Assembly: GCA_963924555.1 (NCBI GenBank)
Contig: OZ004598.1
Location: 558,001 to 622,000 of the forward strand
From: Crambe crambe
Lineage: Eukaryota > Porifera > Demospongiae > Poecilosclerida > Crambeidae
DNA length: 64,000 bases
Direction: 5' to 3'
Part shown: in pieces, positions 12,063-56,200 of the stretch
Layout of the letters: every line of letters starts with the position of its first letter
Numbering within the stretch: position 1 is the stretch's first letter
The notes under the pieces: generated by a model
Told to the model about the DNA's origin: nothing
Seen by the model: the letters and a program-made list of their open reading frames with translations, nothing else
Databases searched by the model: none
Translations under genes and position numbers: made by a program

Positions 12063-12933
12063 TCAGCCTACTACCAAAAGTTCGTCGGTTTGAAACTCGT
12101 ATTTTGGCACTTCCAGATTGGCAGGGGCTGGCCCTTTTCGGATCCTTCCCGAGGCATCGTAATGAGACCCGTGACAGGGACAGAAGTACCCACCGTATTC
12201 ACCAGCATGTGAAATGGGGACACAACCAAGGTGGGTACACACACCAATCAGAACAAGCCATTCTGGTCTGGTCACACGGGCATGGTCATGTTCTGGGTGC
12301 CGTAGAGTAGCAATATCTGTATCCCGAACGAGGTCAATCTCATCTTGGGATCGATGTCTAACGAACAGGGGTTTACCCTGCCACTTAAAAATGGCATTCT
12401 TCCCTTCCGGTATCTTTTCCAACTCTACCTCTATCTTGGCCATAGCAAGGACATCTGCAGAGGCTGCCATGGTCATCACCAGATTGGTCACAATGTTCTT
12501 AACACCATGGGCAGTGACTACTCCCCCTGCTCCCAGAATGAGGTAAGTAGCAGCACGTCGACCTGTGCTATCTGAATTCTTGGAAGCTTCCTTTGTGCTA
12601 TCACGTCTGTAAGCATCAAAATCTGGGTAACTGAGATCAGTGTGACCACATCGAGCTGGGATTCTCGCTGCAAGAGAAAATAGTATTATGGTGAGCTTTA
12701 AATAGAATAAATACCGCAGTAATTGGCATCGACTTACGTAGAAGTCTCACACTGTTGGTTATAGGTCCCCATGGTAGTAAAGACCTCTCTGTAGTCCGTT
12801 CAGGAAGGGGGGCAGGCTTGGACGAGACAGTAACAGGTACGAAGTTATTAGAGCTCACAGGCCCGCAACCCAATACGTTCGTTCCACGCAAGAAATTTGA
12901 CAGGGATCGGGAGATAGTTCTCGTCGAATACAT
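12063..12933 (-). CDS. UQCRFS1: Cytochrome bc1 complex Rieske iron-sulfur subunit
   Basis: Two exons (12738-12933 and 12063-12667) encode 266 residues; the human precursor has 274. The start is [17 protein letters not shown], an Arg/Ser-rich presequence without early acidic residues. The membrane anchor region is [21 protein letters not shown], and the hinge is [17 protein letters not shown]. Both [2Fe-2S] cluster motifs are intact: CTHLGC and CPCHGSH, followed by [19 protein letters not shown]. It transfers electrons from ubiquinol to cytochrome c1 in complex III of the inner mitochondrial membrane. Upstream reading continues open without an ATG, so this start is the first possible one. Head-to-head with ZC3H3. 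Confidence 0.96.
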
Positions 12934-29961: not shown

Positions 29962-32900
29962 ATGGCGGTACAAGACGACGCTATAAAGCTACACAAACTC
30001 TGTCATGATGGGGACATAAAAAAAGTCAAGGCCTACGTTGAGAAATTAGACGATAATGTATTGCGAGACATGCTTGCCAGTAGAAAAGGCAGATCTGGAT
30101 ACACACCTTTGCATGAGGCAGTTGCTAGCGGAAATGCTGATGTGTTGGACTACCTGCTAAACAGAACATGGAATGCTCTCGTTAACTGTCGAACTAAGGG
30201 TGGTTTCACCCCACTTCACTTGGCGGCCAGTTCAGGCCACATATCATGTGTGAGAATATTACTAAATCATTCTGCCGATGTTTTCATAGTGGACAAGCAT
30301 GGCAAGACAGCCAAGGAGACTGCAAAGCTAAGTTCAAGGGCAGGTATTGTGCGACTGCTAAAGAGTGGAGGTGAGGGAAGTGGTCCTAGCCCATATATAG
30401 AAGTACCGTAGTCACTGTAATTCAAGCGCCAGAAAATAATAATTCCATGTAGGCGTGGCGCTTAGCTTATGGCTTAAAAAATGCACTTCCTCTGGGCGTG
30501 GCGCTTAAATTACAGTGGCGCTTAGTTAATTGTAGCTTATCTGGACTGCAAAAACGTGGAGATGGCTACTAGCAGTGCCAATCACTTTCAGCTGTCATTC
30601 AGCAGTGTTGTGAGGAGATTTCACGTGTATCAGGCAGTTTGGACCCCAGTGCTCAATGCTGAATACCTAACACAGCAAGAACATGGCAAAAAAGCTCTTG
30701 ATGGAAGTCTGCTTGGACGATATCACCTCTCAAAAAAGCTGCTTCAATAATGACCACGTGGGTTGCATATATTTAAGCGCCGCCTAAAAATAATACAGGA
30801 AGAGGTGTGGCGCTTTTCTAACAACTAATAAAATGTGATTAGTTGCTAGCTGGCGCTTAAATTATAGTGGCGCTTGAATTACAGTGACTACGGTAGTGTG
30901 GCTATCCAAAGTGCATGAGTTCACCAGTGTGTGACCTGGACAATAATATTTATAATAATATAGATTGGCACTTTTCTTTATCTCCCCTGAATCAGGACAC
31001 TTTTTATGATCCCAATATTGTCCATGTCACATTGAGAAGTTTCACGTTGAGAAGTTTCCACATATTAGTAATAAATAAACAAAACCTGTGTTGGGATGGT
31101 TAGACTATGGTGAGCAAGATTCACTGAATTTGGACAAATAATTGCTGATTCATACAAGAGAAAGTTGTCTATGACCTTATTTTGTGTATGACGACTAGAG
31201 CAACAATAGGTTGTAGCAGATGTCCTAATTAAGCACCATCGCTGCAGAATACCCTTATTCAGTTCTTGAATCACATGCACACTACAAGAAGTTGAATTAT
31301 GTAGACCTCATGCATGATATAACACTGCTTACTACAGAAGTGAAGTGCCACTAAGCTATTAAACTTGAACAATCTCAGAGTATGGAAGTAACTTTCATGT
31401 TGTATGTTTATAATATCAATCTGCATTGTTGTTGAAACTACACAATATTCAATCCTCTCTCTCAGTCTAGTGTTCAGAGATTCAACCAATATTGTTCACG
31501 ACTGTTATGCTAGACCTGGCAAGATATGCCAAAATTTGTTTTTATCTAATGCCGATATTTGACAGGAGGCATTTGAAAACTTTGAGAGGTCATAGAGGTC
31601 ATCCCATCCTTACATAGAGGCATTTAGAAGTATTTGAAACTAGTTACGTGCATTATATCATATGACATCTGAAGGTATCTCAGTGTTGTCAACTCCTTCA
31701 CTGTTAAATCATTTTCATAGAAATTCTTCAAGAGGTTGAAAGTGATGGTGATGGACTGACTGAGCTATTGAGGAATTCAACTGCAGACACCCTGGAACCA
31801 GACTGTCTTAACCGAGCTCTGGTGGCAGCCACTCGCAATGATAACCATCTTAATGTTGGTAAGCTGGTGGTGAAAGGAGCAAACAACCTCAGAGAATGCC
31901 TAGAGTACGCTCAACGAGAGAATAAGCCACATGCCTGTGCCATGCTTCTCATGATTAATGCAGCCATGACAGGAGATAAGTCTGTAGTCCAGAGGTTATT
32001 TGGACAAACTATGGACCAATCTCCAGAGTTTGCAGATCCTGGTTTCCCAGAAGTACAGAAAGCAGTGTTGAGTGGGAAGGTGACCACCGTTGTTCCTATA
32101 GAGATTGCTCGTAGAAGTGGCCACTTTGAAGTGCGTGAAGAGCTACTCTTGGTGACAGACGTGAACCAAGACGAAGGCTATGTGTACTGGCACGGGTTGA
32201 GGTTGTTGAAGCTGGAGGTGTCTTGGCTGAGGAGGATCACATGGGTGAAGCGGCTCAGACTGGCAAGAAATGGATTCAAGACTCTTCCTAATGAAATTGG
32301 AAACTACTTGAAGCAAGTAAGCATCAGAAATGTATGGTTGCACAAGGAGGCAATTTACTCAGGACTAACTGCAATGTGTATAATTACTTCTTGAAACTAA
32401 ATTTGTCTGAGTAATCTGTTATCCAAACTTGTAATGTTTGGATCAGTATGGTGTGTGGTATTCTTGTAAAACTGATGGTCTTATTTGTTTTAGGTCGTGA
32501 AGATTGACCTACAAAGCAATGAACTTTCTGTGATTCCTCACTGCCTCCTTGAACTTCCAAGCCTAGGAGAGCTCAACCTCTCACATAATCGACTCACAGA
32601 GATCCCAGATATCCCCGAGTGGTCTGCCTGCTTGACTGTGCTTGATCTCTCTCACAACCAGCTCAGCTCTCTGCCTCTCAAAGTGGTTGCTCCAACAATA
32701 CGTTCCCTCAATCTCAGCCACAACAACTTTCGAACAGTCCCTCTCTGCATATGTTCCTTTATCACCCTCCACTCCCTAAATTTGAGTGACAATCCTGACA
32801 TCCTCACCTTGCCAGCAGAAATGGGCAGGCTTAACATGCTGGCACGCCTCTACTTAAACAACCTCAAGGATCTCAAGGAACCCCCAAGAAATTTACAAAA

Positions 32901-35900
32901 GGACCCCCGCGATTGTATCCGCTATCTCAACAGCAAGCTGCGCTGTGCGAAGGGGTTCTTTCGTATGAAGATCATGATACTTGGGATGGCCAATAGAGGT
33001 AAAACAACATTGGTGAAGAGAATTCAAGGTAAGGAGTGTGGAAATGAATCCACTGTTGGCGTGGAGGTTACTGAATGGTGGTTCAAACCAAGCCTTGGGA
33101 AGAAACCCTTTCACTTTAGTATATGGGATTTTGCTGGGCAAGAAGAGTACTATGCCACTCACCAGTGCTTCCTCTCCCAACGCTCCCTTTACTTGCTGCT
33201 CTTCAACCTCACTGATGGTGAGGCAGGAGTTGAGGAACTAAAGCCTTGGTTGAATAATATTGCCCTCAGAGCTCCCCGATCTTGTGTGATCATTGCCGGT
33301 ACACATCTGGATGAAGTGCCTGAGGAAGAAAGGGAAGAAATTGATGCTCTTCTGCACAAGGTGAGACGTCTTGCTGAATCGTACAACAACAAACTACAAA
33401 TTGTGGAGGTTATGCCAGTTGGTCTGAAGAATCGAATTGAGAATATCGGTCTTTTAAAAGAGGCCATCTATAACCATGCTGCCAGCTATAAGACACGTGC
33501 TGGGCAGGTGATTATGGGGCAGAAGATCCCAGCTAGCTACCATGCTTTGGACAAACAACTGGAGGTTGTTCAGCAAGAGGTGAGGATGGGGTTGAGGGAA
33601 CCCATCATGCATGCTGAGGCGTTCAAGGCAATGGTGCAGCAGATGAGCTTGGCTGATATCCAGGATGAGGAGGAGTTGAAAACTGCCGCTCTCTTCTTGA
33701 CTGATGTGGGTTCTCTGCTTCACTATGATGACCGAAGTCACAACCTTCATGAGCTGTACTTCATTGATCCATGCTGGCTCTGTAACATGATGTCTAAAGT
33801 TGTCACTATCAAAGAAAGGAACCCATTCATCAAGAAAGGCATTCTCCACTCCAAATATATCCCCTTACTATTCAAGGATGAAAAATTTCCATGGAAGTAC
33901 TTTGAGCAATATCTTACTTTGCTTGATCGCTTTGAGATAGCACTGCCTCTCAATAATAAGTACATACTTATTCCGTCCATGCTTCCTGACGAAAGGCCAG
34001 CACAACTCACCCAGGAAGATACACCTCCAATGTACTCCAGATACATCTTGTTTAACTCAGCTGTCACACCCCCAGGCTTCTGGAGTCGCCTTCTCTCCAG
34101 AATCATGCACTCCATCCCACAGGTTTGCTTTGCTCTTGATAGAATCCTATCAGCTACTAATGAGGAGTGTTTGAATGAGTCATATGATGATGCACCCCAG
34201 ACCCTTCCTAACTTCCCTAATCCTCTGCTGATGACTATAGGAAGGTCATGCAATCTTCAAGATATCCAGCTGGAATACTGGCGTTCAGGGCTCTACTATA
34301 GTGACCTTGATATCACCTTTAGAATTGAATCTCTCATCAAGAGTCCACAGCAAGCTAAACACGAGAGGAAAGATGGTGTGCTCATTGTCGTCTCACCAAA
34401 TAACGAGTGGAAGAGGATCATTGGAGATTTGGTTGATCTTGTTCTTGCACTTATAAATGAGTGGTATCCTGGTCTGGCTGTGAATCAGCATGGAGCAACC
34501 AATTTGGAGCAAAGGATCCCATGTTTTGAGTGCATCAAAATGGAACGCTCCAAACCCTTTGAGTTTCAATCGGACCAATGTCTGCAGGCCATAGCCCAAA
34601 ACCTGTCAAGTATCAAGTGTGGGTATCACCGTGACAACCCTGCAGAGAACCACACAGTATTCCTGGCAGATATTGTCCCTGACTTTCTCCTTCAGGACAT
34701 AGATCCTGTCTTCTTGCTAAATGTGGAAGACATCAGTTATCAAGAAGGTGAGGCTTCTTTACTTGGTAAAGGAGGATATGGCAAGGTCTATAGAGGAAAG
34801 TATCAAGGCAGGGCTGTGGCCATCAAAAAGTACCTGACTCGTTATGAGGATGCCTTCATCGAGTTAAGATCAGAGGCTAAGTTACTGGAGCAGTCCTACC
34901 ATCCTTGCATAGTGTGTTTGATAGGGGTTTGTGTACAACCCATAATGGTCCTGGTCCTGGAGGAGGCTCCACTCAGGTCACTTGAATTTCCTCTCCTTAA
35001 GAAGAAGCTCCCTGTCCATCGCTTGACAATCTTCCGAATTGCAGCTGAAGTGGCTTCTGCTCTTTGCTTTCTGCATAGCCGAGGGATAATTTCCCGTAGC
35101 ATCAAAGCTGCAGATATCTTGCTATGGACCCTTGACCCTGCTTCCCTCTGCCACTGCAAATTGACTGATTTTGGAATTGCCACTCACATGGCTCCTGTAG
35201 GGGCCTGTGGGCTCCAAGGAACAAAAGGCTTCATTGCTCCAGAGGTCCTGCATATTGGCAAGAGAAAACAACGTTCTGTGTATGATCACAAAGCCGATAT
35301 CTTCTCGTTTGGCATGTTCCTTTACCAAATGATAGCTCGTCGCCACCCCTATCACAACATCCCTCCACACAGGATAGATGTTTCTGTGGAAACAGGAGAG
35401 AGGCCAAAACTTCAAGATGTTGATGTAGCTACAACAGGCTTTCATTACCTCACTATGCTCATGAAGAAGTGCTGGGAAGACAACCCCCAGAATCGTCCAG
35501 GTACAGAAGATATCATCAAAACGGTCTGCCTTGCCCCAGTGCAGTCCATCATGTGTGTCTTTCCTGTCAAGAGCAAGTTCTGTCTTTGTAAAGCTGTAGC
35601 TGTCACTCCTGGAGACTTTGCTGTAGCAGGTAACTACACAAAGCTGCATAATGAGTTGTGGGTATGTTGTGATGGGAAGGAAGGTGCTGAGCTAAACATC
35701 TTCAACTCGCAAACCATGAGCTTGATGAACAAGAATTTCATAAAGGAGTGCCAAGTTTGCTGCATAGCTTTGTGTAATGACCATATCTGGGTTGGTTCCA
35801 TGGCTGGGATCGAGTATGGGAGCATAGATATCTTCAATATCACATCTAGTGAATTGGTACACAGTATCAGGATGGGAGAGAACTTTGCATCATGTTTAAT

Positions 35901-37140
35901 TGCAGCAAAAGATAAAGTCTTATTGGGCACTCTTGAAGGCTACATATTCAGATTCAGCAGTGACATTAATGAAGTTCGTGCAAATGCTAACCCCAGTTAC
36001 AAACACATCTCAGAACATGCTGTGGATGGGATTGCTTGCACAAAAGATTTTATTTGGGTTTCAGAGAGCAGGTACATCCACTTCCTCAATCATGATAGCC
36101 TTGTCTTGGAAGGCACTGTCAGCCGTGATGAAGCTCAAGATGCCTTCATTGGTCAACTTTCAGCTTCTCCTTCAGAGGACATCATCTGGAGTGCTCATTC
36201 AGGTGGGACCATCCTCACTGCCTGGGATTCTCATAATCGAACTCACTTCTTTGACATCGATACTTGCAAGAGGCTGTTGAAGACTACTGATGGTATCAGT
36301 AAGCATGATGCAATCATCACTGCCATGTTGCCTGCCCTGGACAGTGTTTGGGTAGGCATGGCCACTGGTCACATCATGGTATTCCATCATGAAGAACTGC
36401 TGGCTTGGTACCAGCCGTATAAAGAATATGTGAGGTTCCTAACACTCATCCCAGGCAGTGGACCCTGTGAAATGGAAAAGTGCATGGTTGTCAGTGGAGG
36501 GAAGAAGTTTGTCCCTGTACTCAATGACGTGGGTCCTGACTATGAGGAGAAGGATGAGAAAGGGCAGTCACTGGATGGAACTGGTGTTCTGGTTATTTGG
36601 GAAGCCTATGAAGCCAAGACCATGAGGCAGATCAAACTGGTGGAGGAGAATGCTCCAGGCTTCTTGGACACTCATGATAGTGTGTGTCACATGATTCACA
36701 CTGGAGAATTCAAGGATGGCACTAAAATGATGCAAAAGAAAGACACTAGTCCTTCTTTTGAAGCTCATCCAAATCTCACTGACCTCTCCACTGATGCCGA
36801 AGACAAAACTCAGGACAAGGCATTGATACCTGATGATGTAAAGAATGTTCCTGATCTTGAAGCTCAAGAAAACCTTGATAACCTCACCACCTTCATCCCT
36901 GATGCTGAAGACCAAGTTCAGGACTCGTCGATGGTTACTGATAATGTGAAGAAAGACAGCACTCCTGCCTCTCTTGATCCCATAGCTCAAACAAACCTTG
37001 ATGACCACTCCACTGATGCTGCTGAGGACAAGTCAATGGCAATGGATGTGGTACACTCACCACTGAGCTTATCTGACAGCCAGAAGTATCCTGAAATGGA
37101 AAATGAAGAAATATTGGCCACAGATGATCAGCCAAGATAG
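29962..37140 (+). CDS. LRRK-like ROCO kinase, copy A (kinase loop degenerate)
   Basis: Three exons (29962-30370, 31721-32316, 32494-37140), 1883 codons. Order: ankyrin repeats (about 46-136, GYTPLHEAVASGNADVLDYL and GFTPLHLAASSGHISCVRIL), a linker, leucine-rich repeats (about 310-470), Roc GTPase (about 490, P-loop GMANRGKT, switch DFAGQEEYYATHQ, THLD), COR, a kinase (about 1090-1350) and a WD40-like propeller (about 1358-1720), then an acidic tail. This is the LRRK1/LRRK2 plan without LRRK2's armadillo part. The kinase keeps GKGGYGKV, VAIK, DFG and APE, but the catalytic loop reads ISRSIKAAD where active kinases have (H/Y)RDxKxxN: the proton-accepting Asp is Ser and the loop Asn is Asp, so catalysis is doubtful. 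ATG 29962 fits the AAGATGG context. Copy B lies 342 bp downstream in the same orientation. Confidence 0.9.
30404..30895. mobile_element. 492-bp TIR element with subterminal GGCGCTTA repeats
   Basis: A perfect inverted repeat of about 28 bp bounds the element: TACCGTAGTCACTGTAATTC at the left, then AAGCGCCA, and its complement at 30868-30895. Each flank also has several TGGCGCTTA(A) or TTAAGCGCC copies in both orientations, like the subterminal transposase sites of some DNA transposons. TA at each end may be the target. No transposase frame. It sits in intron 1 of LRRK-like A and is missing from the matching intron of copy B. Confidence 0.7.
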
Positions 37141-37482
37141 AGAGTCACAGAAACACCTTGATTCTTACCTGGCCATTTTCTTAACTTTTATAATTCATAG
37201 TATAAAATGTATGTGAGGGACTGGCTCTGCGCTGACATCATAGTGTGTCTACTTTTAACGATTTAATCATCTTTTTTTTTTTAATAATGGAATTCGATTA
37301 TACACAGACAAACAAACAAGTCCAAGTCATGGCACTCCGTCTAGAGAGAGGGGGGGGGGGGGGGGGGGGGGGGGAGGGGGGGGGGGAGAGTTGGGAGGCG
37401 ATGTCTACCACACTGCGCATGCTTAGAGGTAACGGTATCCTTCGCATTCCGATCCCTGCAATTTATTGCGAAGACAAGGAAG
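37141..37482. other. Intergenic region between LRRK-like A and B
   Basis: The first 45 bp (GAGTCACAGAAACACCTTGA, then TTCTTACCTGGCC) match coding sequence of copy B near 44647, so this is a relic of a C-terminal domain that copy A no longer encodes. A nearly pure G run follows at about 37351-37387, then a promoter box CACTGCGCATGCTTAGAGGT at 37411, just before the start of copy B. Confidence 0.7.
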
Positions 37483-40400
37483 ATGGCTGGGGCAGTACAA
37501 TGGCTGCTGCAAGACGACGCTAAGCTGCACAAGCTCTGTCACGATGGGAACCTAAAGAAAATCAAGGCCTACGTCGAGAAATTGGACGATGATGTACTGC
37601 GGGACATGCTTGCCAGTAGAAAAGGCACGTTTGGATACACACCTTTGCATGAAGCAGTTGCTAGTGGAAAGGCTAACGTGTTGGACTATCTGCTAAGCAG
37701 AACACAGAATGCTCACATTAACTGTCTAGCTAGGAGTGGCTTCACCCCACTACACTTTGCGACCAGTTCAGGCAGCATATCATGTGTGAGAACACTACTA
37801 CAACACTCTGCCGATGTTTCCATAGTGGATGAGTATGGCAAGACAGCTAGGCAGATTGCAGAGCTAAGTTCAAGGGCAGACATTGTGCGACTGCTATTGA
37901 GTGAAGGTGAGGGAAGTGGGCACCCTAGACCATAATACATGATGAGTGATGTCAGTCATTAGCTATCAGTTGAACAAAGTGAGGTAGCTCAATGTGGATT
38001 GCAATAATATGGCATTTCTCCCCTGAAGTACAGATAGCTAACTACCTTTTTTCTAATCAGGGCACTTTTATACTGTCAACAGAGATTTCATATCCCATGT
38101 GAATTTTGCATACTTTATATGTTTTGTATAGCTAGTATAGCTAGCTAGTTCAGAGTGAATTACAGATGTTTAATAAGAATTGAGCTGGTTTTGACTGGAT
38201 TTATGTGGCAGCAAAAATTTTATTTACAGTTGATTGACTTTTGAGGTTATAAATGGAGTAAGTCTTGAAGTTTAATCGTTAGTTGAATGTGTAGTTTTGC
38301 TTGCTCGTTTGGGCACACAATAATTATATGGACACCGTGAGCAATCACTTTACCCCTTGCTGTGCATGCGTGCACGGGGTAATAAAGAAGGCTTTAGAGT
38401 TGGCTGTGCAGGCTATTTTCAGAAAAGTAGCTGGTTAGATTCATGCAATCTCAGAGACTATCATGTAAATACGAAAGTGAAGGACTTTCATGCTACATGT
38501 TAAAATAACAATCTGGATAGTTGTGGAAATTATAAAACCACATCTAAACTATTATAGCTATTTCCCAATTTCCTCTAACTTCAACAGCTGCTGACCTTCA
38601 GTGTTCAGTGGTATAATCAACCAATGACCTGCTGCTGTCAGCTAGACATGGCAAGATTATGCCAAAATCTGTTTTTCCCATGATGATACCAATAAGAAAC
38701 CAGCTGCATGCATTGATATCTCCAGGTACTTCCAGGTATCTGTGTTGTTGCTCACTGTCAATTCATTTTCATAGAAATCATTCAAGAGGTTGAACATGAC
38801 GGTGATAGAGTGACTGAGCTATTGAGGAATTCAAGGGTAGACACCCTGGAACGAAACTGTCTTAACCGAGCTCTGGTGGCAGCCACTCGCAATGATAACA
38901 ACTTTAATGTTGGTAAGCTGGTGGTGAAAGGAGCAAACAACCTCAGAGAATGCCTAGAGTATGCTCAACGAGAGAATAAGCCACATGCCTGTGCCATGCT
39001 TCTCATGATTAATGCAGCCATGACAGGAGATAAGTCTGTAGTCCAGAGGTTATTTGGACAAACTATGGACCAATCTCCAGAATTTGCAGATCCTGGTTTC
39101 CCAGAAGTACAGAAAGCAGTATTGAGTGGGAAGGTGACCACTGTTGTTCCTATAGAGATTGCTCGTAGAAGTGGCCACTTTGAAGTGCGTGAAGAGCTGC
39201 TTTTAGGGACAGATGTGAACCAAGAAGAAGGCTATGTGTACTGGCATGGATTGAGGCTGTTGAAGCTGGAGGTGTCTTGGTTGAGGATGATCACATGGGT
39301 GAAGCGGCTCAGACTGGCAAGAAATGGACTCAAAACACTTCCTAATGAAATTGGAAACTACTTGAAACAAGTAAGCTTAATAGAGAGATGTATGCATGCA
39401 TTAGTAGAACTTGATTATTATTGTAGCTACTATCTCAATGGAGCCTGCTGGGTCATCCCCATGTCGAGCTTGTTCATAGCAAGGCATCGCCTTGTTGTGT
39501 ACCTTAGGAATTTTTTCAATAATTTATTCAAAACATTGAAACTGATAGCTAATAGCGAAGCATTCAATATCTGTTATGTAAATATATAATATTTGTTCTT
39601 GTGTGGTACTGTCATCATCTTTTCGTATTTTTCTTTCTGCATCTTTCTCATGTGCCTTCCTTCTTGATGGCTGTTATCATCATTTCACTCATTCTGAATA
39701 CATTGCTATTTTCTAAACTTTCTATTACAGGTGGTAAAGATTGACTTACAACACAATGAACTTTCTGTGATTCCTCACTGCCTCCTTGAACTTCCAAGCC
39801 TAGGGGAGCTCAACCTCTCACATAATCGACTCACAGAGATCCCAGATATCCTTGAGTGGTCTGCCTGCTTGACTGTGCTTGAACTCTCTCATAACCAGCT
39901 CAGCTCTCTGCCTCTCAAAGTGGTTGCTCCAACAATACGTTCCCTCAACCTCAGCCACAACAACTTCCGAACAGTCCCTCTCTGCATATGTTCCTTTATC
40001 ACCCTCCACTCCCTAAATCTGAGTGACAATCCTGACATCCTCACCTTGCCAGCAGAAATGGGCAGGCTTAACATGCTGGATCACCTCAACCTAAATAACC
40101 TCAAAGATCTCAAGGATCCCCCAAGGAATGTACAAAAGGATCCCCGTGATTGCATCCACTATCTCAATAGCAAGCTGCACTCTGTCAGAGAGTTCTATCG
40201 CATGAAGCTTATGGTAGTTGGGCAGGCCAATAAAGGTAAAACAGCTTTGGTAAAACGACTTCAAGGTAAGGAATGCGGGAATGAGGCTACAGTTGGTGTG
40301 GAGGTTAGCGAATGGTGGTTCAAACCAAGCATTCGAAAAAAGCCCTTCCACTTTAGTATATGGGATTTTAGTGGACTAAGTGAGTACTATGCCACTCACC

Positions 40401-43400
40401 AGTGCTTCCTCTCCCAACACTCCCTTTACCTGCTGGTCTTCAATCTCACTGACGGTGAGGCAGGAGTTGAGGAACTAAAGCCTTGGTTGAATAATCTTGC
40501 CCTCAGAACTCCCCAGTCTTGTGTGCTCATTGTTGGTACACATCTGGATGAAGTGCCTGCAGAGGAAAGGGAAGAAATTGATGCTCTTCTGCACAAGGTG
40601 GGACGTCTTGCTGAATCGTACAACAACAAACTACAAATTGTAGAGGTTATGCCAGTTGGTCTGAAGAATCGGATTGAGAATATCGGTCTTTTAAAAGAGG
40701 CTCTGTATAACCATGCTGCCAGCTATAAGACACGTGCTGGGCAGGTGATTATGGGGCAGAAGATCCCAGCTAGCTACCATGCTTTGGACAAACAACTGGA
40801 GGTTGTTCAACAAGAGGTGCGGCAGGGGTTGAGGGAGCCCATTATGCATGCTGAGGAGTTCAAAACAATGGTGCAACAGATGAGTTTGGCTGATATCCAG
40901 GATGAGGAGGAGTTGAAAAAAGTCGTTTGTTTTTTGACTGACGTGGGCTCTCTGCTTCACTATGATGACCGAAGTCACAACCTTCATGAGCTGTACTTCA
41001 TCGATCCATGCTGGCTCTGTAACATGATGTCTAAAATTGTCACTATCAAAGAAAGGAACCCATTCATCAAGAAAGGCATTCTCCACTCCAAATACATCCC
41101 CTTACTTTTCAAGGATGATGTATTTCCTTTGAGGTACTTTGAGCAGTATCTCTCTCTGCTTGATCGCTTTGAGATAGCACTGCCTCTCAATAACAAGTAC
41201 ATACTTATTCCGTCCATGCTTCCTGACGAAAGGCCAGCACAACTCACCCAGGAAGATACACCTCCAATGTACTCCAGATACATCCTGTTCAACTCAGCTG
41301 TCACTCCTCCAGGCTTCTGGAGTCGCCTTCTCTCCAGAATCATGCACTCCATCCCACAGGTTTGCTTTGCTCTAAATAAATCACTACCTTCCTTTCTTGC
41401 TGAGGAGTATCCGAGCAAGGAGGAAAAAGGAACTGATTTTAGCCTGAACATGCCAGGCACTCCACTCTCTCCTGACCCATCCTTTGCCACTAACTCTGAG
41501 TTAGGAGCTTCTTCTCTTTCTCACCCTCTCCCAGTGATTAGCAAACCAATGAGACAGGTTTCACAGGATCAATACCATCTTGATGGTGTACCCCAGCTCT
41601 GCCCAGGTTCACTGCCATCGAGAGGAATATATGATGCCAAAGATATCCAGCTGGAATACTGGCATTCAGGGCTCTACTATAGTGACCCTGATATCACTTT
41701 TAGAATTGAATCTTTCATCAAGAGTCCACAGCAAGCTAAACACGAGAGGAAAGATGGTGTGCTCATTGTCGTCTCACCAAATAATAAAGGGAAGAGGATC
41801 ATTGGACAACTGGTCGATCTTGTTATTTCACTTAGTAGTGAATTGTATCCTGGTTTGGCTGAGAGTCATCATGGGGCAAACTCTATGGAACAAAGGATCC
41901 CATGTTCCGAGTGCATCAAGATGGAGCGCTCCAAACCCTTTGAGTTTCAATCAGAGCAATGTCTGCAGGCCATAGCCCAAAACCTGTCAAGTATCGACTG
42001 CGAGTATCACTGTGACAACCCTGCAGAGAACCACACAGTGTCCCTAGCAGATATTGTCCCCGACCTTCTCCTTCAGGACATGGATCCTGTCTTCTTGCTT
42101 AATGCAGAAGATATTGATTATCAAGAAGATGAGGCTTCTTTACTTGGTAAAGGAGGATATGGCAAGGTCTATAGAGGAAAGTACCAAGGCAGGGCTGTGG
42201 CCATCAAGAAGTACCTTACTTGTAATGAAAAAGTATTTGCTAGTATCAGATCAGAGGCTTTGTCACTGCAAAAGTCTTACCACCCTTGCTTTGTGTGTCT
42301 TGTTGGAGTGTGTGTGCACCCCAAGTGGGCCCTGGTCTTAGAAGATGCTCCTCTTCAGCCTCTTGAACTTCTTCTCCTCAAGAAGAAGCTCCCTGTCCAT
42401 CGCTTGACAATCTTCCGAATTGCAGCTGAAGTGGCTTCTGCTCTTTGCTTTCTGCATGGTCAAGAGATCATTTTCCGTGACCTCACAGCTGCAAATGTTC
42501 TGCTATGGACCCTTGACCCTGCTTCTCTCTGCCATTGCAAGTTGACTGATTTTGGAATTGCCACTCATATGGCTCCCATGGGGGCCCGTGGATTCTGTGA
42601 TCACAAATGGTTCATTGCTCCAGAGGTTCCATATTATTGATAAAAGAGGACATTCTCCGTGTGATTACAAAGCTGATATCTTCTCATTTGGCATGTTCCT
42701 TTACCAAATGATTGCCCGTCGCCACCCATACCACAATATCCCTCTCCACAAGATCGATGCTTCTGTGAAAACAGGAGAAAGACCCATACTTCAAGATGTT
42801 TGTATTGCCAAAACAGGCTTCAATTACCTCACTATGCTCATGAAGAAATGTTGGGAAGACAACCCTCAGAATCGCCCAACTACTCATGAGATCATCAAGA
42901 CGGTCTGCCTTGCCTCAGTGCAGTCCATCATGTGTGTCTCTCCTGTCCAAAGGAAACTCTCTCTTTGTAAAGCTATTGCTCTTACTCCCGCGAGCTTTGC
43001 TGAAGCAGGCAACCCTGCAAAGTGGCATAATGAGTTATGGGTGTGTTGCAATGTGAAAGAAGGCACTGAGCTGAACATCTTCAACTCACACACAATGGAG
43101 AAGATGAGCAAGAACTTCATTAAGGATAACCAAGTTCAATGCATGGTTCTGTGTAACAACCATGTCTGGGTGGGCTCCAGAGCTGGGATCGAGTATGGTG
43201 TTATTGACATCTTTGATATTACTTCTCACGAATTGGTCCACAATATCAGATTGAGGGAGACTTCTGCATCATGTCTGACTGCAGCAAAAGATAGAGTTTT
43301 GATGGGCACACTTGAAGGCTACTGTTTCAGTTTCAGCAATGATGTGACTAAAGTTAGAACAGGAAATCCCAAGCCCAAATACAAGTATATCTCAGAGCAT

Positions 43401-44744
43401 GCTGTGGATGGAATTGCTTGCACGAAAGACTTTATTTGGGTTTCACATGGCAGACACATCCACTTCCTCAATCATGATAGCCTTGCCTTGGAAGGGACTG
43501 TCAGCCGTGATGAACCTCAAGATGCCTTCATTGGTCAACTCTCAGCTTCTCCTTCAGAGAACATCATCTGGAGTGCCCATTTGGGTGGGACCATCCTCAC
43601 TGCCTGGGATTCCACCAATAGGACCCATTCCTTGGATGTCGATACCTCCAAGAGGCTACCAGAACATGTCAGAGAGGATGCAATCATCACTGCCATGTTG
43701 CCTGCCCTGGACACTGTGTGGGTAGGCATGGCCACAGGTCACATCATGGTGTTCCATCATGAAGAACTGTTAGCTCTGTATCATCCGTACAAAGCAGAAG
43801 TCAGGTTCCTCACTCTCATCCCAGGCAGTGGACCCTGTGAAATGGAAAAGTGCATGGTTGTCAGTGGAGGGAAGAAGTTTGTCCCTGTACTCAATGACAT
43901 GGGTCCTGACTACAAGGAGAAGGATGAGAAAGGGCAGCCATTGGATGGAACTGGTGTTCTGGTTACTTGGGAAGCCTATGAAGCCAAGACCATGAGGCAG
44001 ATCAAACTGGTGGAGGAGAATGCTCCAGGCTTCTTGGACACTCATGCTAGCGTGTGTCACATGATTAACATTGGAGAGTTCAAGGATGGCACTGAAGTGA
44101 TGCAAAGTGTTAAAAGGAAAGACACTATTCCTTCTCCTTATCTTCCAAATCTCTCCATTGAAGCTGAAGACCAAACTCAGGACAAGGCATTGATGTCTGA
44201 TGATATAAAGAACGTTCTTGATCTTGAAGCTCTCGATAACAAGTCAATGGCAACCGATAATATAAAGAAAGAAAACACTCCTTCCCCTCCTGATCTCAAA
44301 GATAAAACAAGCCTTGATCACCTCTCCACTGATGCTGCTGAGGATAACCAAATGGGTGTACTTGAGGTGGACAATATCCGGATACACTCACCACTGAGCT
44401 TATCTGATGGCCAGAAGCATCCTGAAATGGAAGAAGAAGAAAAATTGGCTGCAGGCAATCTATTTTTCAGAGGTGAGGAAGTCTTTGAGATCACGTTGCC
44501 AGGATCCACTCAGCCTGTTCGTGTTGCATGCCCAAAGCCTCCCACTCTCAAGGACTTGTTGAACGAGCTGCAACTGAAAGCATCACTGAGTAAATTTGAG
44601 TGTCATCTGCAGTATGTGAAGGCCACAGGAGAAGTTGCTGAGCTAGAGTCACAAAAACACCTTGATTCTTACCTGGCCCTGCCAAATACACCCAAGTTAT
44701 TTGTCAGGGCCGATGAAACAGGAATGGAAATGCGTGTACTTTGA
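37483..44744 (+). pseudogene. LRRK-like ROCO kinase, copy B (one frame break)
   Basis: Tandem paralogue of copy A with the same three-exon plan: 37483-37906, 38775-39370, 39731-44744. Long stretches are nearly identical. Ankyrin, LRR, Roc (P-loop GQANKGKT; switch DFSGLSEYYATHQ, lacking the GQ of copy A), COR, kinase (GKGGYGKV, VAIK, FRDLTAAN loop, DFG, APE), propeller. After APEV at about 42628 the frame ends at 42640; compared with copy A, 2 nt are missing net, and reading resumes in another frame as HIIDKRGHSPCDYKADIFSF to 44744. Restoring length gives 2011 codons. The loop Asp is kept but the following Lys is Thr. The C-terminus has an extra domain of about 75 residues (EVFEITLPGSTQPVRVACPK, LKDLLNELQL), possibly ubiquitin-like. 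An assembly error or allele is possible, since both halves otherwise look intact. Confidence 0.75.
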
Positions 44745-48473: not shown

Positions 48474-50022
48474 ATACTGTTGCCTCCACAGTTATTGAGA
48501 ATAAGGTGTGCCCTCTCAATGACGTCCTCTGGGTACAGTCCCTTTTCCTCTAGGTCCTGTGGATGAGTGCAGGCTGCCAGCAGCTGTCTGACAAAGGTGA
48601 GAGGTTTCTGACCCATAGCATGGCAGTCACCAATATTACAGAACAAGACGCTGTCAAATGGATAAGTCTCTGTACGCTGAAAATAAGAATTATTAATGAA
48701 TTATTAACTATAATTATAAGGGAAATGCAAAATATTGTCAGCGGCGAGCGAAGCCATTGGCGTCACCTTATTGCAAAGGACAGAACTGGAAGAACGTACG
48801 TATGATGTAAATAATAATAGCACCCTCTCTCATATGACCCCCTAGTGACGCTTCGCTCGCAAGTAAAGTGCTAGTTTTGTGCTTAATTCAATGGTATCAT
48901 AGTGTAGAGTGTATGAAGACTACAGGCCTGAACATTTGAGAAGCCAGCACTGAGACACACAAGTAACTCATCACAGGAATTGACATTAACATGGCTACAA
49001 GAGCCCAGACCTTTCATTGATTACAAAAACTTGAATTTTAACAGTATGCACTATTAATATTTAGCTACCAGTGCCGAGCCAGAAGTCTTTTAAAGACTAA
49101 CTTGTTAAAATATTCCTCGTAGCCCCACGAGTTGCCTCTGGAAGCATTATTATGTGATTTGTAAAGGATGTATCAGGAAGTATTTGTTTAATGAGGTAGC
49201 CCATCGTAGGCATAGTAACATAATATCTGCATCCACATCAAAGCAAAGTGTTACCTATGAATTTAAACCACTACAAACATTATGAATACCAGCAAGCCAT
49301 AGCAACTCAGTGAACTGCTCTAAGGTTACCTTTCATTCAATCTTTCACACAGACTCATCATGCAAGAACTTGATGCATTGCATATAAATTTCCTTACAGG
49401 GTACAAGGTAGTGCATAATTCATATAAATTGCTAAGCAATTGGGAACTCTAGCTGTTAATTAATTGAGCAAGAAAAGGTGCTACTTATCAACTGGCAAGA
49501 AAGTGTTATAAAGTCATAAATCACATCTCTCCTAATACATGATGAGTGATGATAACAGAGACACAGTGTCTTCCTCAAACTACACACTCCATGGACCATG
49601 TAACTAGCCCCACCCACTAGCATACAAAAACATACCTTCTTTATGGCCCTCTCTATGTCAATAGCCTCCAGTGGCAACTTCCCCCTCACTGCATACTCCA
49701 TGCCCTTCACGTAGGGATTAATGGTCTCCATTGTAAGACGAAATTTCCTCCTAGCATTTATACTAATACTACTGTCAGTGCTACTACAAATAATACTGCT
49801 GCAACTCAGTTCTCTTCTGGATGCCATTCCCAAGCCTTTCAAAGTGTGGTATTTAGCACAACTGGAGGAGAATCCACAAGATAGAGTTCTTGGAAGTGCA
49901 AGTACTTGAGGGTGTTTTAGCGTTGCTAAGGTTCGAGATTCAGATCTTGTGTTTAGCAATGAGTTGCTTCCGACAAGTCTCAATACATCTCTGCCACGCA
50001 ATGCTCTCTCACAATGAAGCAT
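45253..50022 (-). CDS. GPT: Alanine aminotransferase
   Basis: Nine exons in transcript order: 49636-50022, 48472-48676, 47970-48217, 47752-47881, 47158-47368, 46372-46480, 46023-46244, 45757-45875, 45253-45352; 576 codons. The core follows ALT: INPYVKGMEYAVRG, NIGDCHAMGQKPLTFVRQLL, LNGASEGIKTML, INPGNPTG, TDEVYQENVY, then FNSTSKGFFGECGIRGGY with the PLP lysine in STSKG, VQGAMYAYPRI, and VCVVPGSGFGK. It interconverts alanine and 2-oxoglutarate with pyruvate and glutamate. The first 97 codons are an Arg/Ser-rich extension suggesting mitochondrial import. A second ATG at 49731 (ACAATGG) just before ETINPYVKG would give a 479-residue, ALT1-sized cytosolic form. Introns hold a CT microsatellite (48403-48469) and a C run (47720-47743) next to splice sites. 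Confidence 0.94.
47720..47743. repeat. Poly(C) run, G-tract on the GPT transcript
   Basis: About 24 C in a row, ending 8 bp from the exon 4 donor of GPT, so the transcript has a G run a few bases into the intron. Confidence 0.85.
48403..48469. repeat. (CT)n microsatellite in a GPT intron
   Basis: Pure CT run of 66 bp merging directly with the CTCAC donor complement of GPT exon 2, after a CTC-rich start at 48386. Confidence 0.9.
48677..49635. other. GPT intron 1, no recognised feature
   Basis: About 960 bp between exons 1 and 2 of GPT. AT-rich with no coding frame, repeat array or RNA gene that I can support. Two GCGAGCGAAGC/GCTTCGCTCGC segments near 48742 and 48848 form an inverted pair. 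Confidence 0.4.
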
Positions 50023-50390
50023 GTTATACCACAAGTCGGCGGTTTGAGCTACTCAGCACGTGTTGATCCCGTTCACTGATGATAGATAGATAGTAAATGC
50101 TTTATCCGCGATCCTATGAGCCTGACAGCCTGCCAAAAGAATTCCTGTAGAGCATCTGGTCTTTGAAGTCTTTCCTTAGCCTATAGTATTAAACTTTCTT
50201 CTGGATGTTTGCCTTGGTTTCACCAAGGACGCCTAATTACTTGGTATATGGACGCCTACATAGCATAGCTGCTTGACTCCACCTCCAAAAGCTAATTAAA
50301 TCGGAAGTTAACAATAATTAGAAACTGCCGGCCGGCCCCACCCACTAATCAGTCATTAGCAGCGCGCGCTAATTGAAAATTTTTCATACC
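50023..50390. other. GPT promoter side and 3' flank of the fusion gene
   Basis: Intergenic stretch with a short GATA run near 50080 and a CpG-rich AGCAGCGCGCGCTAATTG block near 50360. It should contain the GPT promoter and the 3' end of the transporter-glycosyltransferase transcript. Confidence 0.4.
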
Positions 50391-53084
50391 TCACCCACCA
50401 TGACAGAGAATGCAAAATGAATTTAGAAGTTGGCTGCAAATGGTTCTTTTGTTCAATTTGTCTTTGCCAATGCCTATAGAGCCAGTTATCTTTCCATTCA
50501 AATGTACACCATAAGCCTTCTCATTCAAAAGCTTCATCTTCATTCTAAAAACAACACCACTAGTAATAATATTAAAGCAATATTGCTTAAGCTCAGAATA
50601 ATGAAACACATAGAAAGTATAGTATGGGAGGACATGAACAGCGTTGCTGCTTGTGTAACTTTCCTGCCAAACTCGAGTGACAAGGAACGGTCCATTCCCT
50701 GCCCAGCTGTATGAATTGTATCCTCTCACAAACTCCTCCAAACATGACTTCAAAAACACATTACCTTTCTCAAAGAACAGAAAAGCAGTATTCAAGAGAT
50801 GATTGTGGTCATCTTGCCACCCTAGAGTGTTGACTGTAAGGGGGTCCAGTGGTTTCACCAGGATCACATCTGTGTCCATGTACACACCCCCATACCGATA
50901 CAGCAGAATCAGTCTAATCAGATCAGCTTCGTGAGCATACCAGTGTGGGCCTTCCCTGGCTAATTCTAGTTCGTAGACAAAATCATGAGCGGGTGTACCT
51001 GCAATCAATTTCCTCAGATCGTAGCCTTGAACTCTTATTGAATAACCTGCTGTTGACAAGTCTTCAAATGTGTCTCGTGTTAGTGTGTTACTATATATTG
51101 TGACGTGAGATGTAGGATGATGGTAGAAGATGGACTCGACTGTACGCATGTGTCGCCAGTTAAAAGCTCCTCTTAGCGTGATATTGTTAGAATAACGATT
51201 AACTATTGATTTATTGGAAGTGGTAAATATTAAAAAGAAGGATAATCGTTTCCCAACATGTCTTGATCCGAGTGATAATGTTGGTAGGGGGTCGAATTTC
51301 ATCAAGTCTATTCTCTTCACTTGTGCATCATCATACAGAGGGTCAAGCGTCGTTGAAACAAAACTTCTTGTCTTTAATAGGTTCACTCTCTCAAACCGTA
51401 TACCTCCAACTCTGTCAGGACAATGATGTATGCATGAAGCAAATAAAACTGAAATGGACTTCTTAAACTCCAGCAGCAAAGAAGCATTATTTATCGCCTC
51501 TATTGGATACTTGTTCATAAAGAAGTCGGCAAGCTTAAGAATGAAGGGATGAGTTCTTGGGAAGTATGAAATGTCGAGCAATCCAAGGCCCCCTCTCTCT
51601 TTCACTCCCTTCATTATCCAGGGGTGTTCACATGATCTGGGGAGAGGTAGTGGATCTGTGATTCGTATAGAAGGATCTACAAAGATTCCACCACGTGTCC
51701 ACAAGAGGTCAACTCTTCCCACCTCTTGGAGAAGAGCTTCTAATTCCTTATCATCTTCATGGAAAGGAAAGTGTGCAAGCCATCCACCAAACAGTACGCT
51801 TTTCGTGAAATCTGTGATTTCAGCACCCAGGTTCTTAATACTGAGCTTGGCAATTGCTTGATAGCACTGAGCTGTACCACAGTAGACATGTATTGGTGTA
51901 GCAGGGTTACTCCATGCTAAGTACTTTATATTTGTGATAACAACATCAGGAATGTCTTCCTTATAAATCCAAACTGTGAACACCTTTTTCTCCCAAGGAC
52001 ATTTCTCAACTGCTGTGGAAAGTTCGGTCAATCCAAGTTGGTTTTTATTTACTGCTCCTGCGATTAATGGTTGAAATAGCTTTTGTGAGTGAGTACTTGA
52101 CATAAGCAGGTACATAGTGAACAATGAAAAAGATTTGAATAAAACATGTTTCTTTTTCGATGTGATATTAAACTGATGCAAGTAAGAACCACCAATGAAC
52201 AAAAGTAGACCCAGTACTGCACTCGAGGAAATCGGGGTAAGAAAGTACAAAATGTTGGCTACTATGACAACTGCTTCTTTTGAGACAGTTAGGAAAGAAA
52301 AGGTCAAGGGGTTAAACATTTCCAATACTAATGTCGAAGTCACACTGTATATGCCTGTGAAGACACCAGATGCTATAGTTTCTAAGACTCGATTTGCAAT
52401 GGAAACTTCAGAAATCATTAGTTGCTTTATTAGTATGACTGGAAGCAAAAAGAGCATGCTATAAATGGACAAGAATACGAGTTTTTGCGATGGATTTTTC
52501 CACACATTACTCAGTTTGTTCAGATAGATATCACGAATTGTAAATGCTGTGTTTGAAATCAGTGCTGCTACTAAGCCCCAGATGATAAGAGTTGTATCTC
52601 TAAATATGAAAGAAACGGCTCCAAGACTTGTGATTACAATTGACAGTATTCCAAAGAGATCTTCGTGGTCACTACTGTGATCTCTGTGGAAGAGAAGGGT
52701 GAGTACAAACATGATGATAGGCTCACAACCTCGGATCACCTGCACTGTGCTGGAGGCAGCATAGGAATACGCAATGTTGCTTGCAAGACTTCCAAAGATA
52801 TTCCAGAATGCAGCCAGACACATGCACATTTTTTGATCGTTGGTATTAAACTTGGTCCAAATTGCTTTCCCCATTATCATCTTTGTCCAAGTTACAGCTG
52901 CAACTGATCCACAAAGGAGCTGAATTGCTGTCAGATCCACCCATCTTAGATCCTGGAATGATGATAGGTCCACGGGGCTATCATCCTCCATTATCATTAC
53001 ACTTTTGGAGGCAATGGTTGCTATGATGTGGGCAGTCCACCAGAGAGCCACAGCGATTAGTGGCTGATGGCAAGAGATATTCAT
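50391..53084 (-). CDS. TPT/SLC35-like transporter fused to two GT-like domains
   Basis: Intronless frame of 897 codons with an ATG start. Residues about 1-310 form a multi-helix transporter of the triose-phosphate/nucleotide-sugar family: VQVIRGCEPIIMFVLTLLF, the ALISNTAFTIRDIYLNKL helix, and a Lys-rich end (SKKKH). Residues about 345-600 start like a GT32-type fold (VFTVWIYKEDIP, NPATPIHVYCG), but the metal-binding site reads TRGGIFVDPS instead of a DxD. Residues about 615-880 are a second, better-kept domain resembling alpha-1,4-galactosyltransferase: VTIYSNTL, HEADLIRLILLYRYGGVYMD with TDVI giving D-T-D, and NGPFLVTRVW. The likely site is the Golgi membrane with the GT domains lumenal. Coupled UDP-sugar import and transfer is an inference from the fusion. 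No break or internal stop is present. Confidence 0.85.
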   Translation of the reverse strand: MNISCHQPLIAVALWWTAHIIATIASKSVMIMEDDSPVDLSSFQDLRWVDLTAIQLLCGSVAAVTWTKMIMGKAIWTKFNTNDQKMCMCLAAFWNIFGSLASNIAYSYAASSTVQVIRGCEPIIMFVLTLLFHRDHSSDHEDLFGILSIVITSLGAVSFIFRDTTLIIWGLVAALISNTAFTIRDIYLNKLSNVWKNPSQKLVFLSIYSMLFLLPVILIKQLMISEVSIANRVLETIASGVFTGIYSVTSTLVLEMFNPLTFSFLTVSKEAVVIVANILYFLTPISSSAVLGLLLFIGGSYLHQFNITSKKKHVLFKSFSLFTMYLLMSSTHSQKLFQPLIAGAVNKNQLGLTELSTAVEKCPWEKKVFTVWIYKEDIPDVVITNIKYLAWSNPATPIHVYCGTAQCYQAIAKLSIKNLGAEITDFTKSVLFGGWLAHFPFHEDDKELEALLQEVGRVDLLWTRGGIFVDPSIRITDPLPLPRSCEHPWIMKGVKERGGLGLLDISYFPRTHPFILKLADFFMNKYPIEAINNASLLLEFKKSISVLFASCIHHCPDRVGGIRFERVNLLKTRSFVSTTLDPLYDDAQVKRIDLMKFDPLPTLSLGSRHVGKRLSFFLIFTTSNKSIVNRYSNNITLRGAFNWRHMRTVESIFYHHPTSHVTIYSNTLTRDTFEDLSTAGYSIRVQGYDLRKLIAGTPAHDFVYELELAREGPHWYAHEADLIRLILLYRYGGVYMDTDVILVKPLDPLTVNTLGWQDDHNHLLNTAFLFFEKGNVFLKSCLEEFVRGYNSYSWAGNGPFLVTRVWQESYTSSNAVHVLPYYTFYVFHYSELKQYCFNIITSGVVFRMKMKLLNEKAYGVHLNGKITGSIGIGKDKLNKRTICSQLLNSFCILCHGG

Positions 53085-53289: not shown

Positions 53290-56200
53290 TCATCTTCTCT
53301 TGTATCTGAAGATATTATAGTATTCAGTGCAACGCAAACACAAGAAACCTACACCTAACCTCTTCTTGGACTTAAATTTGTTTCCTTTTGCTCTTGATGT
53401 CATCCCCACAACACTTCTACAAGACACAATACAATATGGTAGCATGAATTAGGACTCTTGAGTGCAGCTCACCTTGAGTCCTTCACTTTTCTCCTGGCAT
53501 TAGTCAGTTCTTTATCAAACCCTTGATCAATAACAGGAGGAGGCCTTTTCACTTTAGCTAGGATATTAAAGTATACAAGAACCAACAGTACTGCTTAGGA
53601 TATTACAGTATACAAGAACTAGTAATATTACAAGAATAGCCCTTCAATGCTAATAGCCCTGGAGTGTGGAAGATTTGACTGGTACCTCTTTTCTGTGGCT
53701 TGTCATCCTGAAGCGTGGACTTCTTCTTCTTGCGAGCTCTCTTGGCCACTCTGGCAATGTACTCTTGCTCATGCTTCAGCTTCAGGGCAGCCTTCTCCTC
53801 TGGCTGAAACAAGACAAATAAATTATGCTGTTCCCTAGCTGTTATATATATTGCATAAACCTTCAAATACTGTCACACTGTTTAACAAATTATCATCACA
53901 TTTTTCACTCCATTCCTCCATTCTTTTAACTACACTTACTGTTTCAGCTTTTTTCATCTTCTTCTTGATTTCTTCCTTCTTTGCTCTCTTACTGAGAGGA
54001 GCATGTGGTGCATCCTTCCCCACCTCCCTGGCCCTTTTGCTTCCTGCTTGGATCCAAGTGCGTGCTGGCCTGCTCAAAATCTCTGCCTTGTGCTCTACAA
54101 GATTCTTGGCTTTGTTGACAGCCATCTCAGAGAGTCTGAGCTGTTTTTCCTCTTCTTCTTGCTTCAAGATGGCTTTAATCTCACTCCCTAGTTTTCGGAT
54201 CTTGTCACGATACTTCACTATCACCTCTGGGAAGAAGAGACAAGAGATGATGCTAGTTTATGGTTTGTGCTTGATCATAATGAATAACACTTACCAGGTG
54301 GAATGGTTCTACTTTTTACTGGACGTTTTGCTTGCTTTACTATCTCCTTCAACACTTTTCTTTCTTTCTCACCAACGAGTGAAATGGACCTTTTAATATA
54401 TGGTAAAGGGTCGTCAAAGGAATCTACTATGGATGCTGTACCTGCCACTTCTTCCTGCCCTGGCAGTCCGACCCACTCTGTGGATGTACTGCTTCAGAGA
54501 TGAAGGCATGGATATATTGATCACCTGCAGACAATGTCATTATATTACACACTGCAAAAGGAGAGGGAATGGTGACACTGAACAGGTAAAGTGGATCTTC
54601 AGATTAAAAGGACACTCTGAAAGAGGACCAACCTCTCTTTCAAAAGACAATCAAAGAGTACCTTTGTATACAAAATAACCTCCAAAAGAGAATAACCTCT
54701 ATTATTCAAAAAGACAAAAGGCTGGGTCCTCAAGTGTGCCCGGTTCCAATGTATCTGCTCTACTCACAGTCTTCACTCTTTCTATGTCCAAGCCTCTTGA
54801 TGCTAAGTCAGTGGCTAGCATAAAGTCCACCACTCCTTCTGCAAAGGCTTTCAACGACTCTATTCTCTTCAAAGCAAAACATAAAGATACCATTACATTG
54901 GCTCTCAGAATGTATGTATGTATGTATGTATGTATGTATGTATGTATGTATGTATGTATGTATGTATGTATGTATGTATGTGTTTGTACAGTACCTGTAG
55001 CTGAGTGAGGGCTCCATGAAGCTCAACGGCCTTGAGTCCGAGGAGACCAAAGATGATCCTCATGCGATGTGCCAGCTTCTTCGTGGGGAGGAACACCAAA
55101 CAGTGCTCCTTGAAGCTCCGACAACAAAGAGCTGTCAGTGTATCACAGCAAGCAAGTCACAAAAACAATCCCTTCCACGAGGTATTCTTATAATACTCTC
55201 TTCTTTCCCCACAATAAACCCTGTAATCATATACCTTACATATCCCTTAACCATAATTATGTCACAGCAAAAATATATTCCCCACACAGTGTAACCCCCT
55301 CACTATAACACCTTAGATATACCGTATGTAGATTTAATAAAGACACTTCTCTGATGTCCCGATTTTACAATCAGAACTGTCCCCGAGTGAGTGGGTGGGC
55401 TGGTCTCACTTACCTACTAAAATGGCTTCTCTGTCTTCCTCCTTATTGGGCTTGATCCGCACGAACTCCTGACGTAGGTTGCTGGCCACGTCTGTGTTCC
55501 CATCCACAAACAGCCTCACTGGATGCTTCAAACTCAAACGAACAAGTTCTTCCACCTGCAAGTAAAAAAACATGTCAAAAGTGATGATGAGTGAAAACAA
55601 TTGACTATCAGGACACCCCAATAAAGACGTCTCTCTGCTATCACTCCATCCTTGAATAAAGACATCACTTCTGGCCCCAAACGATTAACTTAAAAGTGTC
55701 TTAGAGAGCCACTTCTCTCTCACCTTGTCTGTCATGGTGGCTGAGAAGAGCATGGTCTGTCTCTTCACTGGACACAGCTTTATGATTTCATTCATTTGAT
55801 CCTCAAAGTGCTCATCAAGCATTCTACAGGACACAGAAAGATGGAAAGAAGTCTAGAGCACAGGATCTATAGGATCAACTTCAATATATACAATGCACAA
55901 TACATTATTACAAACTTGACTAGTTCAGAAATACACAACACTTTTGCCTGGCTGAGAAATACTTCCTGACCTGTCAGCTTCGTCCAGGATCAAGATTTCG
56001 ACTGTGCTCAGACTGAAGGAGGGGGCATTGTGAAGATGGTCTACCAGACGTCCAGGGGTTGCTATCACAATGTCAGGGTTCTTACGGAGCGCTGCCTCCT
56101 GGCTCTTGCTATCAAGACCCCCTTGGAGGAGAACAGATATTAAAACCAACATGTACTTCATTATGGGGCAATAGAAACATGGGTTTCGGGGCTAAAATTT

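Follow-up and report, generated by a model that had tools for sequence, protein, structure and literature searches.

A single open reading frame in the sponge Crambe crambe joins a predicted TPT-family transporter to a degenerate GT-A-like domain and a putative A4GALT-type transferase

The TPT/SLC35-type transporters (Pfam PF03151) comprise SLC35E proteins and also the plastid phosphate translocators, and ten-helix transporters have both their N- and C-terminal ends in the cytosol. Glycosyltransferases (GTs) of the GT32/A4GALT type, in which PF04488 is followed by PF04572, use nucleotide sugars as donors and normally possess a single GT domain, fixed in the membrane by a single type II anchor, while tandem GT-A transferases such as LARGE and the chondroitin synthases carry two GT-A domains per chain, both of which are catalytic. 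In three published studies, mammalian Golgi transporters and transferases are described as associating as separate chains, i.e., SLC35A2 with B4GALT1 and SLC35A3 with MGATs (PMC6453868, PMC11994309, PMC9368800). Here, we describe an open reading frame of Crambe crambe in which a predicted TPT-type transporter, a degenerate GT-A-like domain and a putative GT32/A4GALT-type transferase follow one another. It is located in a stretch of 64,000 nucleotides, hereafter referred to as the window, which represents positions 558001-622000 of the 5.67-Mb contig C21 (OZ004598.1) in an assembly of 143 Mb and 119 contigs (GCA_963924555.1).

Compared to the TPT/SLC35-type transporters, the fusion shares the TPT domain and adds two further domains. 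It resembles the GT32/A4GALT-type transferases in possessing both Pfam parts in order with an intact DTD motif, yet its candidate anchor comes after an entire transporter, and its intact GT domain is preceded by another, degenerate one of GT-A-like type. As in the Golgi pairs described in the studies cited above, an importer of a donor would be paired with its user, but in one chain rather than two; and as in LARGE and the chondroitin synthases two GT domains are present, with the differences that the middle domain of the fusion is without the second Asp of its DxD motif and that a transporter has been added. In open-access full text, judged by titles and the starts of abstracts and with subscription papers and preprints outside the scope, no description of a natural transporter-transferase fusion was found, in agreement with a preliminary description of the locus, which knew of no protein with this order. 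One paper containing the words 'transporter fused to' (PMC4654811) presumably refers to a tag.

The fusion frame begins with an ATG at window position 53084 and comprises 897 codons without an internal stop (902 from stop to stop), encoding a product of 897 amino acids, with its stop codon ending at position 50391. Under a first-order model, the chance of 897 codons staying open is ~3e-23, while that of the 340 codons 304-643, located between the two recognised ends, is ~3e-10. The frame is real, beyond chance, at these coordinates and on the minus strand. The best reading of its sequence is that the gene encodes a genuine one-chain transporter-transferase, against which it has to be said that the fusion is known from the genomic sequence of one species alone, and that codon statistics give the coding frame no advantage over other frames. 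A different view is that hidden splicing, an internal promoter or an assembly join yields two separate products, so that transporter and transferase never form one chain. A strict donor pattern with introns of 40-600 bases revealed two donor-like sites in the frame. In addition to the purely genomic origin of the data, this view draws on one of them, at residue 120, for which in-frame acceptor-like partners exist at residues 216, 244 and 290, all situated within the transporter. It also draws on the position of the stop codon within GGTGGGTGAGGTATG (window 50380-50400, minus strand), which resembles a splice donor, so that the last few residues, or the 3' end, of the real protein may differ. 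Against this view, not one in-frame donor-acceptor pair listed under these settings spans the transporter-transferase join, the frame is stop-free and lies in a 5.67-Mb contig, the window contains zero N, and a close second copy of the transporter, middle or C-terminal part was not found in the genome, where weak matches only were returned, which gives no sign of separate parent genes. Two separate products are regarded as improbable.

The N-terminal part of the predicted one-chain protein matches PF03151 over profile positions 5-290 of 291 (286/291), representing a complete TPT domain. Ten non-overlapping hydrophobic stretches were assigned between residues 8 and 303 (computed Kyte-Doolittle maxima of 1.36-2.32 at 19 residues), the ranges of which were set partly from family knowledge, the hydropathy profile itself displaying nine separate peaks. 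The closest solved relative by sequence is 5y78 (E 1.2e-6), which is named as a putative hexose phosphate translocator and which we take to be from Galdieria. In the alignment to 5y78, its KR pair corresponds to K269-E270 of the fusion and the Lys of its VVKS motif to R118, both the KR pair and this Lys presumably being phosphate contacts in 5y78. The model of plastid phosphate translocators, TIGR00817, returned a weak match of 39.5 bits, far under its cut-off of 317.9, and an identity as plastid phosphate translocator was accordingly rejected. Based on this score and on the change from KR to KE, the N-terminal part, a TPT protein, is probably something other than a plastid-type phosphate carrier, and a nucleotide sugar is a plausible cargo.

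The C-terminal part matches, in succession, Gly_transf_sug and Gb3_synth, and alignment A5 indicates that it keeps the GT32 invariants R, G, G, Y, D and D, with YRYGGVYMDTD at residues 729-739. By its sequence, it is identified as a GT32/A4GALT-type transferase with an intact DTD motif. In the genome search, which scores best candidates only, so that its counts are lower bounds, it was the only Gb3_synth match found. The preliminary description had read the frame as a TPT/SLC35-type transporter, a GT32-like middle and a second domain with an intact YRYGGVYMD-TD site, and this order was borne out in a single frame, the Pfam search that it had proposed placing TPT, Gly_transf_sug and Gb3_synth above their curated cut-offs (Table 1). 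It had also called the frame intronless and unbroken; the frame is indeed open across its full length, while 'intronless' holds only in this open-frame sense.

The nature of the cargo bears on a further alternative, according to which the fusion is real and serves co-localisation only, the transporter providing an anchor and a fixed stoichiometry, or carrying another cargo such as phosphate or a different nucleotide sugar, with no direct hand-over of the donor. This would be in keeping with the phosphate translocators in the TPT family, with 5y78 as best solved relative and with the weak TIGR00817 match, and nothing in the sequence shows that the substrates of transporter and transferase match. 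It is at odds with the replaced phosphate contacts, with the distance of the TIGR00817 score from its cut-off and with the use of nucleotide sugars by A4GALT-type enzymes; we consider it somewhat unlikely.

Between the two recognised ends, the middle domain (residues 349-612) returned no Pfam family at E values up to 10. A GT32 profile built without this domain nevertheless still detects it, with a single-comparison p value of 0.0009 as against 0.35 for the transporter control, and AlphaFold2 modelling on a GT32 alignment produced a GT-A fold at moderate confidence. A shallower model, based on 22 rows and with a predicted local distance difference test score (pLDDT) of 56.2, matched six PDB chains at E<=1e-3, all of which are YeGT or SetA glycosyltransferase. 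The GT domains of bacterial toxins and effectors are among the PDB matches of the middle-domain model, which speaks of fold kinship only and is silent on function. The degenerate site keeps R457, G465, G466 and D470, while S472 replaces the second Asp of the DxD motif (D470-P-S472). The preliminary description had thus correctly noted the motif TRGGIFVDPS (residues 463-472), but its statement that a DxD is lacking applies to the second Asp and not to the first, which is kept. Since the first Asp is retained and the second is a Ser, the middle domain is probably a non-catalytic GT-A domain, i.e., a pseudo-transferase.

Several results weigh against this assignment of the middle domain. Its HMMER score was 4.3 bits at first and 3.3 bits with a 126-row profile, the best two shuffles scoring 6.8 and 6.6. 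The AlphaFold2 models rest on GT32 alignments and are thereby biased towards a GT-A fold; moreover, pLDDT is below 50 in 79 of the 264 residues of the deeper model, and the Foldseek TM-scores of the PDB matches at E<=1e-3 are low (0.34-0.47), so that the packing in these models is unreliable. No credible relative of the domain was found in plasmids or phages (one match each, at E values of 6 and 7) or in viral contigs, and BLASTP returned no match (E 1.7) to a GT32-like protein encoded elsewhere in the genome (locus L009, see below). Profile and models support a degenerate GT-A/GT32-like domain, in line with the GT32-like domain of the preliminary description, with a putative GT-A fold predicted at moderate confidence.

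Where the transporter ends, residues 313-331 constitute a candidate eleventh transmembrane segment, directly preceded by three lysines (residues 310-312). At 19 residues, two of three hydrophobicity scales give this segment a value in the range spanned by the ten transporter segments: on the Goldman-Engelman-Steitz (GES) scale it scores 1.26 (0.78-2.30 for the transporter segments; no more than 0.71 for the GT part), while its Hessa-type pseudo-dG, calculated with a position weighting of our own choice, is 2.09 (transporter segments -0.04 to 3.03; GT part at least 3.96). On the Kyte-Doolittle scale, by contrast, it passes at a length of 15 residues alone and fails at 17, 19 and 21, its value of 0.98 at 19 residues lying below GT-part peaks of 1.35 and 1.15, and it contains one Lys and several Ser. 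These latter findings argue against a crossing, and an additional membrane segment, though possible, is marginal. If residues 313-331 do not cross the membrane, both GT domains of the chain would be cytosolic and thus on the opposite side from the imported donor. The GES and Hessa-type scores, which group the segment with those of the transporter and separate it from the GT part, make such an arrangement improbable in our view, as do the KKK ahead of it, which fits the positive-inside rule, and the ~35 residues between it and the first strand of the middle domain, which would form a stem as in type II transferases. By its position, the segment resembles a type II Golgi transferase signal-anchor, and as an anchor it would bring both GT domains into the lumen. 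Such a layout would be expected if a type II transferase gene, anchor included, had been appended to a transporter gene. N-glycosylation was dropped as a topology argument, the five sequons in the chain, three of which are in the GT part, being judged no more than chance.

According to the best explanation, for which we would put the chances at about even, the gene product is one secretory-pathway membrane protein. As its sequence shows, a degenerate GT-A-like domain separates a TPT transporter from an intact GT32/A4GALT-type transferase, and residues 313-331 would form an eleventh membrane segment, a relic of the anchor that the ancestral transferase possessed as a type II protein. Since both ends of a ten-helix transporter are cytosolic, a crossing by this segment would position both GT domains in the lumen, where the cargo of the transporter arrives. 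There, the C-terminal domain would use an imported nucleotide sugar to glycosylate a lumenal acceptor, and the nucleotide monophosphate would exit via the same transporter. The middle domain, with one DxD Asp lost, would most likely serve as a spacer or scaffold, or else hold a donor or an acceptor. Supply and use would be set at one to one and in one place by the fusion, and true channelling may be possible. Of the reading in the preliminary description, the three-part order and the degenerate middle domain are supported, and a sugar-nucleotide cargo, a lumenal transferase, direct channelling of the donor and a regulatory middle domain are possibilities. A more far-reaching proposal of covalent channelling across the membrane, with a Golgi transporter supplying the lumenal transferase of its own chain and the dead GT-A domain between them receiving the donor and passing it on or gating its use, is rather doubtful.

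With respect to the origin of the fusion, the other clear TPT gene of the genome, on contig C12 and SLC35E1-like by eye, is matched in three separate pieces, as expected of an intron-containing gene, and no GT part was noticed in the 3.2 kb read there; the fusion, by contrast, occupies a single frame. Signs of a retrocopy were not found: the sole direct repeat detected around the fusion gene is internal to its frame, with no flanking repeats to indicate retroposition, and a parent gene was not found in the genome search. The above-mentioned L009 gene (C13:6430187-6431242; 1078-2136 of the locus, minus strand) is a single frame of 352 amino acids, the product of which has a hydrophobic, anchor-like N-terminus, scores just under the Gly_transf_sug cut-off (20.3 versus 23 bits) and reads YGGVISDFDV where the fusion reads YGGVYMDTDV.

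Outside the sponge, the collections searched consisted of prokaryotes, viruses and plasmids. Short-peptide scans, which from single sequences detect close relatives only, returned no relatives, whether viral contigs were scanned with the transporter, the middle or the C-terminal part, or bacterial and archaeal genomes with the whole protein; as these collections are without animal genomes, this says nothing on the conservation of the fusion. For the C-terminal domain alignments, 159 related viral stretches (80 kept) and 196 related bacterial or archaeal stretches (79 loci kept) were obtained, 19 of the 80 viral loci being left out of a later script and four of the 79, from Clostridioides difficile, being excluded from everything that followed. 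Alignment A1 included four of six phage or plasmid loci and alignment A2 twenty viral rows chosen by eye for length, while A4 combined 60 of 85 non-redundant rows with two stretches of the window, and A5 27 such rows with the C-terminal domain.

Table 1. Positions of the fusion frame and its predicted features in the window
Feature	Residues	Window coordinates	Strand	Basis
Whole fusion frame, 897 aa		50391..53084	-	Stop-free open reading frame
TPT-family transporter domain	10-303	52176..53057	-	Pfam PF03151, E 9.7e-24, 84.7 bits (cut-off 30); hydrophobic segments
KKK, then candidate eleventh transmembrane segment in type II signal-anchor-like position	310-312, 313-331	52092..52157	-	Hydrophobicity scales
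Middle domain, diverged GT-A/GT32-like, probable pseudo-transferase	349-612	51249..52040	-	GT32 profile, shuffles, AlphaFold2, PDB fold matches
Degenerate site EVGRVDLLWTRGGIFVDPS	454-472	51669..51725	-	Alignments A2 and A4
C-terminal transferase, first part, Gly_transf_sug	644-751	50832..51155	-	Pfam PF04488, E 7.6e-17, 62.2 bits (cut-off 23)
Intact active-site signature HEADLIRLILLYRYGGVYMDTD, DTD 737-739	718-739	50868..50933	-	Alignment A5
C-terminal transferase, second part, Gb3_synth (A4GALT conserved region)	771-894	50403..50774	-	Pfam PF04572, E 2.1e-14, 54.2 bits (cut-off 22.3)

The fusion frame is flanked on the minus strand by a frame at 53835-54224, tentatively likened by eye to the C-terminal part of DDX27, and one at 49456-50034, likened in the same tentative way to the N-terminal part of alanine aminotransferase; neither gave a convincing Pfam match. 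Two tandem LRRK-like genes are present at 31708-44744 on the plus strand, with LRR, Roc, COR, kinase and LRRK2 beta-propeller domains according to Pfam. In the second copy the kinase is divided over two overlapping frames (39698-42640 and 42546-44744), suggesting a frameshift or an unmarked intron. The window furthermore contains a gene for the Rieske iron-sulphur subunit of complex III in one frame (12063-12746, minus strand; Pfam UCR_TM and Rieske), and a stop-free frame of 821 codons that enters from the window start (1-2466, plus strand).

Whether a nucleotide sugar is passed directly from importer to transferase is an open question of Golgi biology, which has so far been studied with separate, associating proteins. 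A natural covalent pair would offer a linkage that can be cut, allowing rate, product and donor competition to be compared. If the proposed architecture is true, it would place a pseudo-glycosyltransferase domain between the importer and the enzyme, and would link the sole A4GALT-type enzyme that the genome search returned to a transporter of its own.
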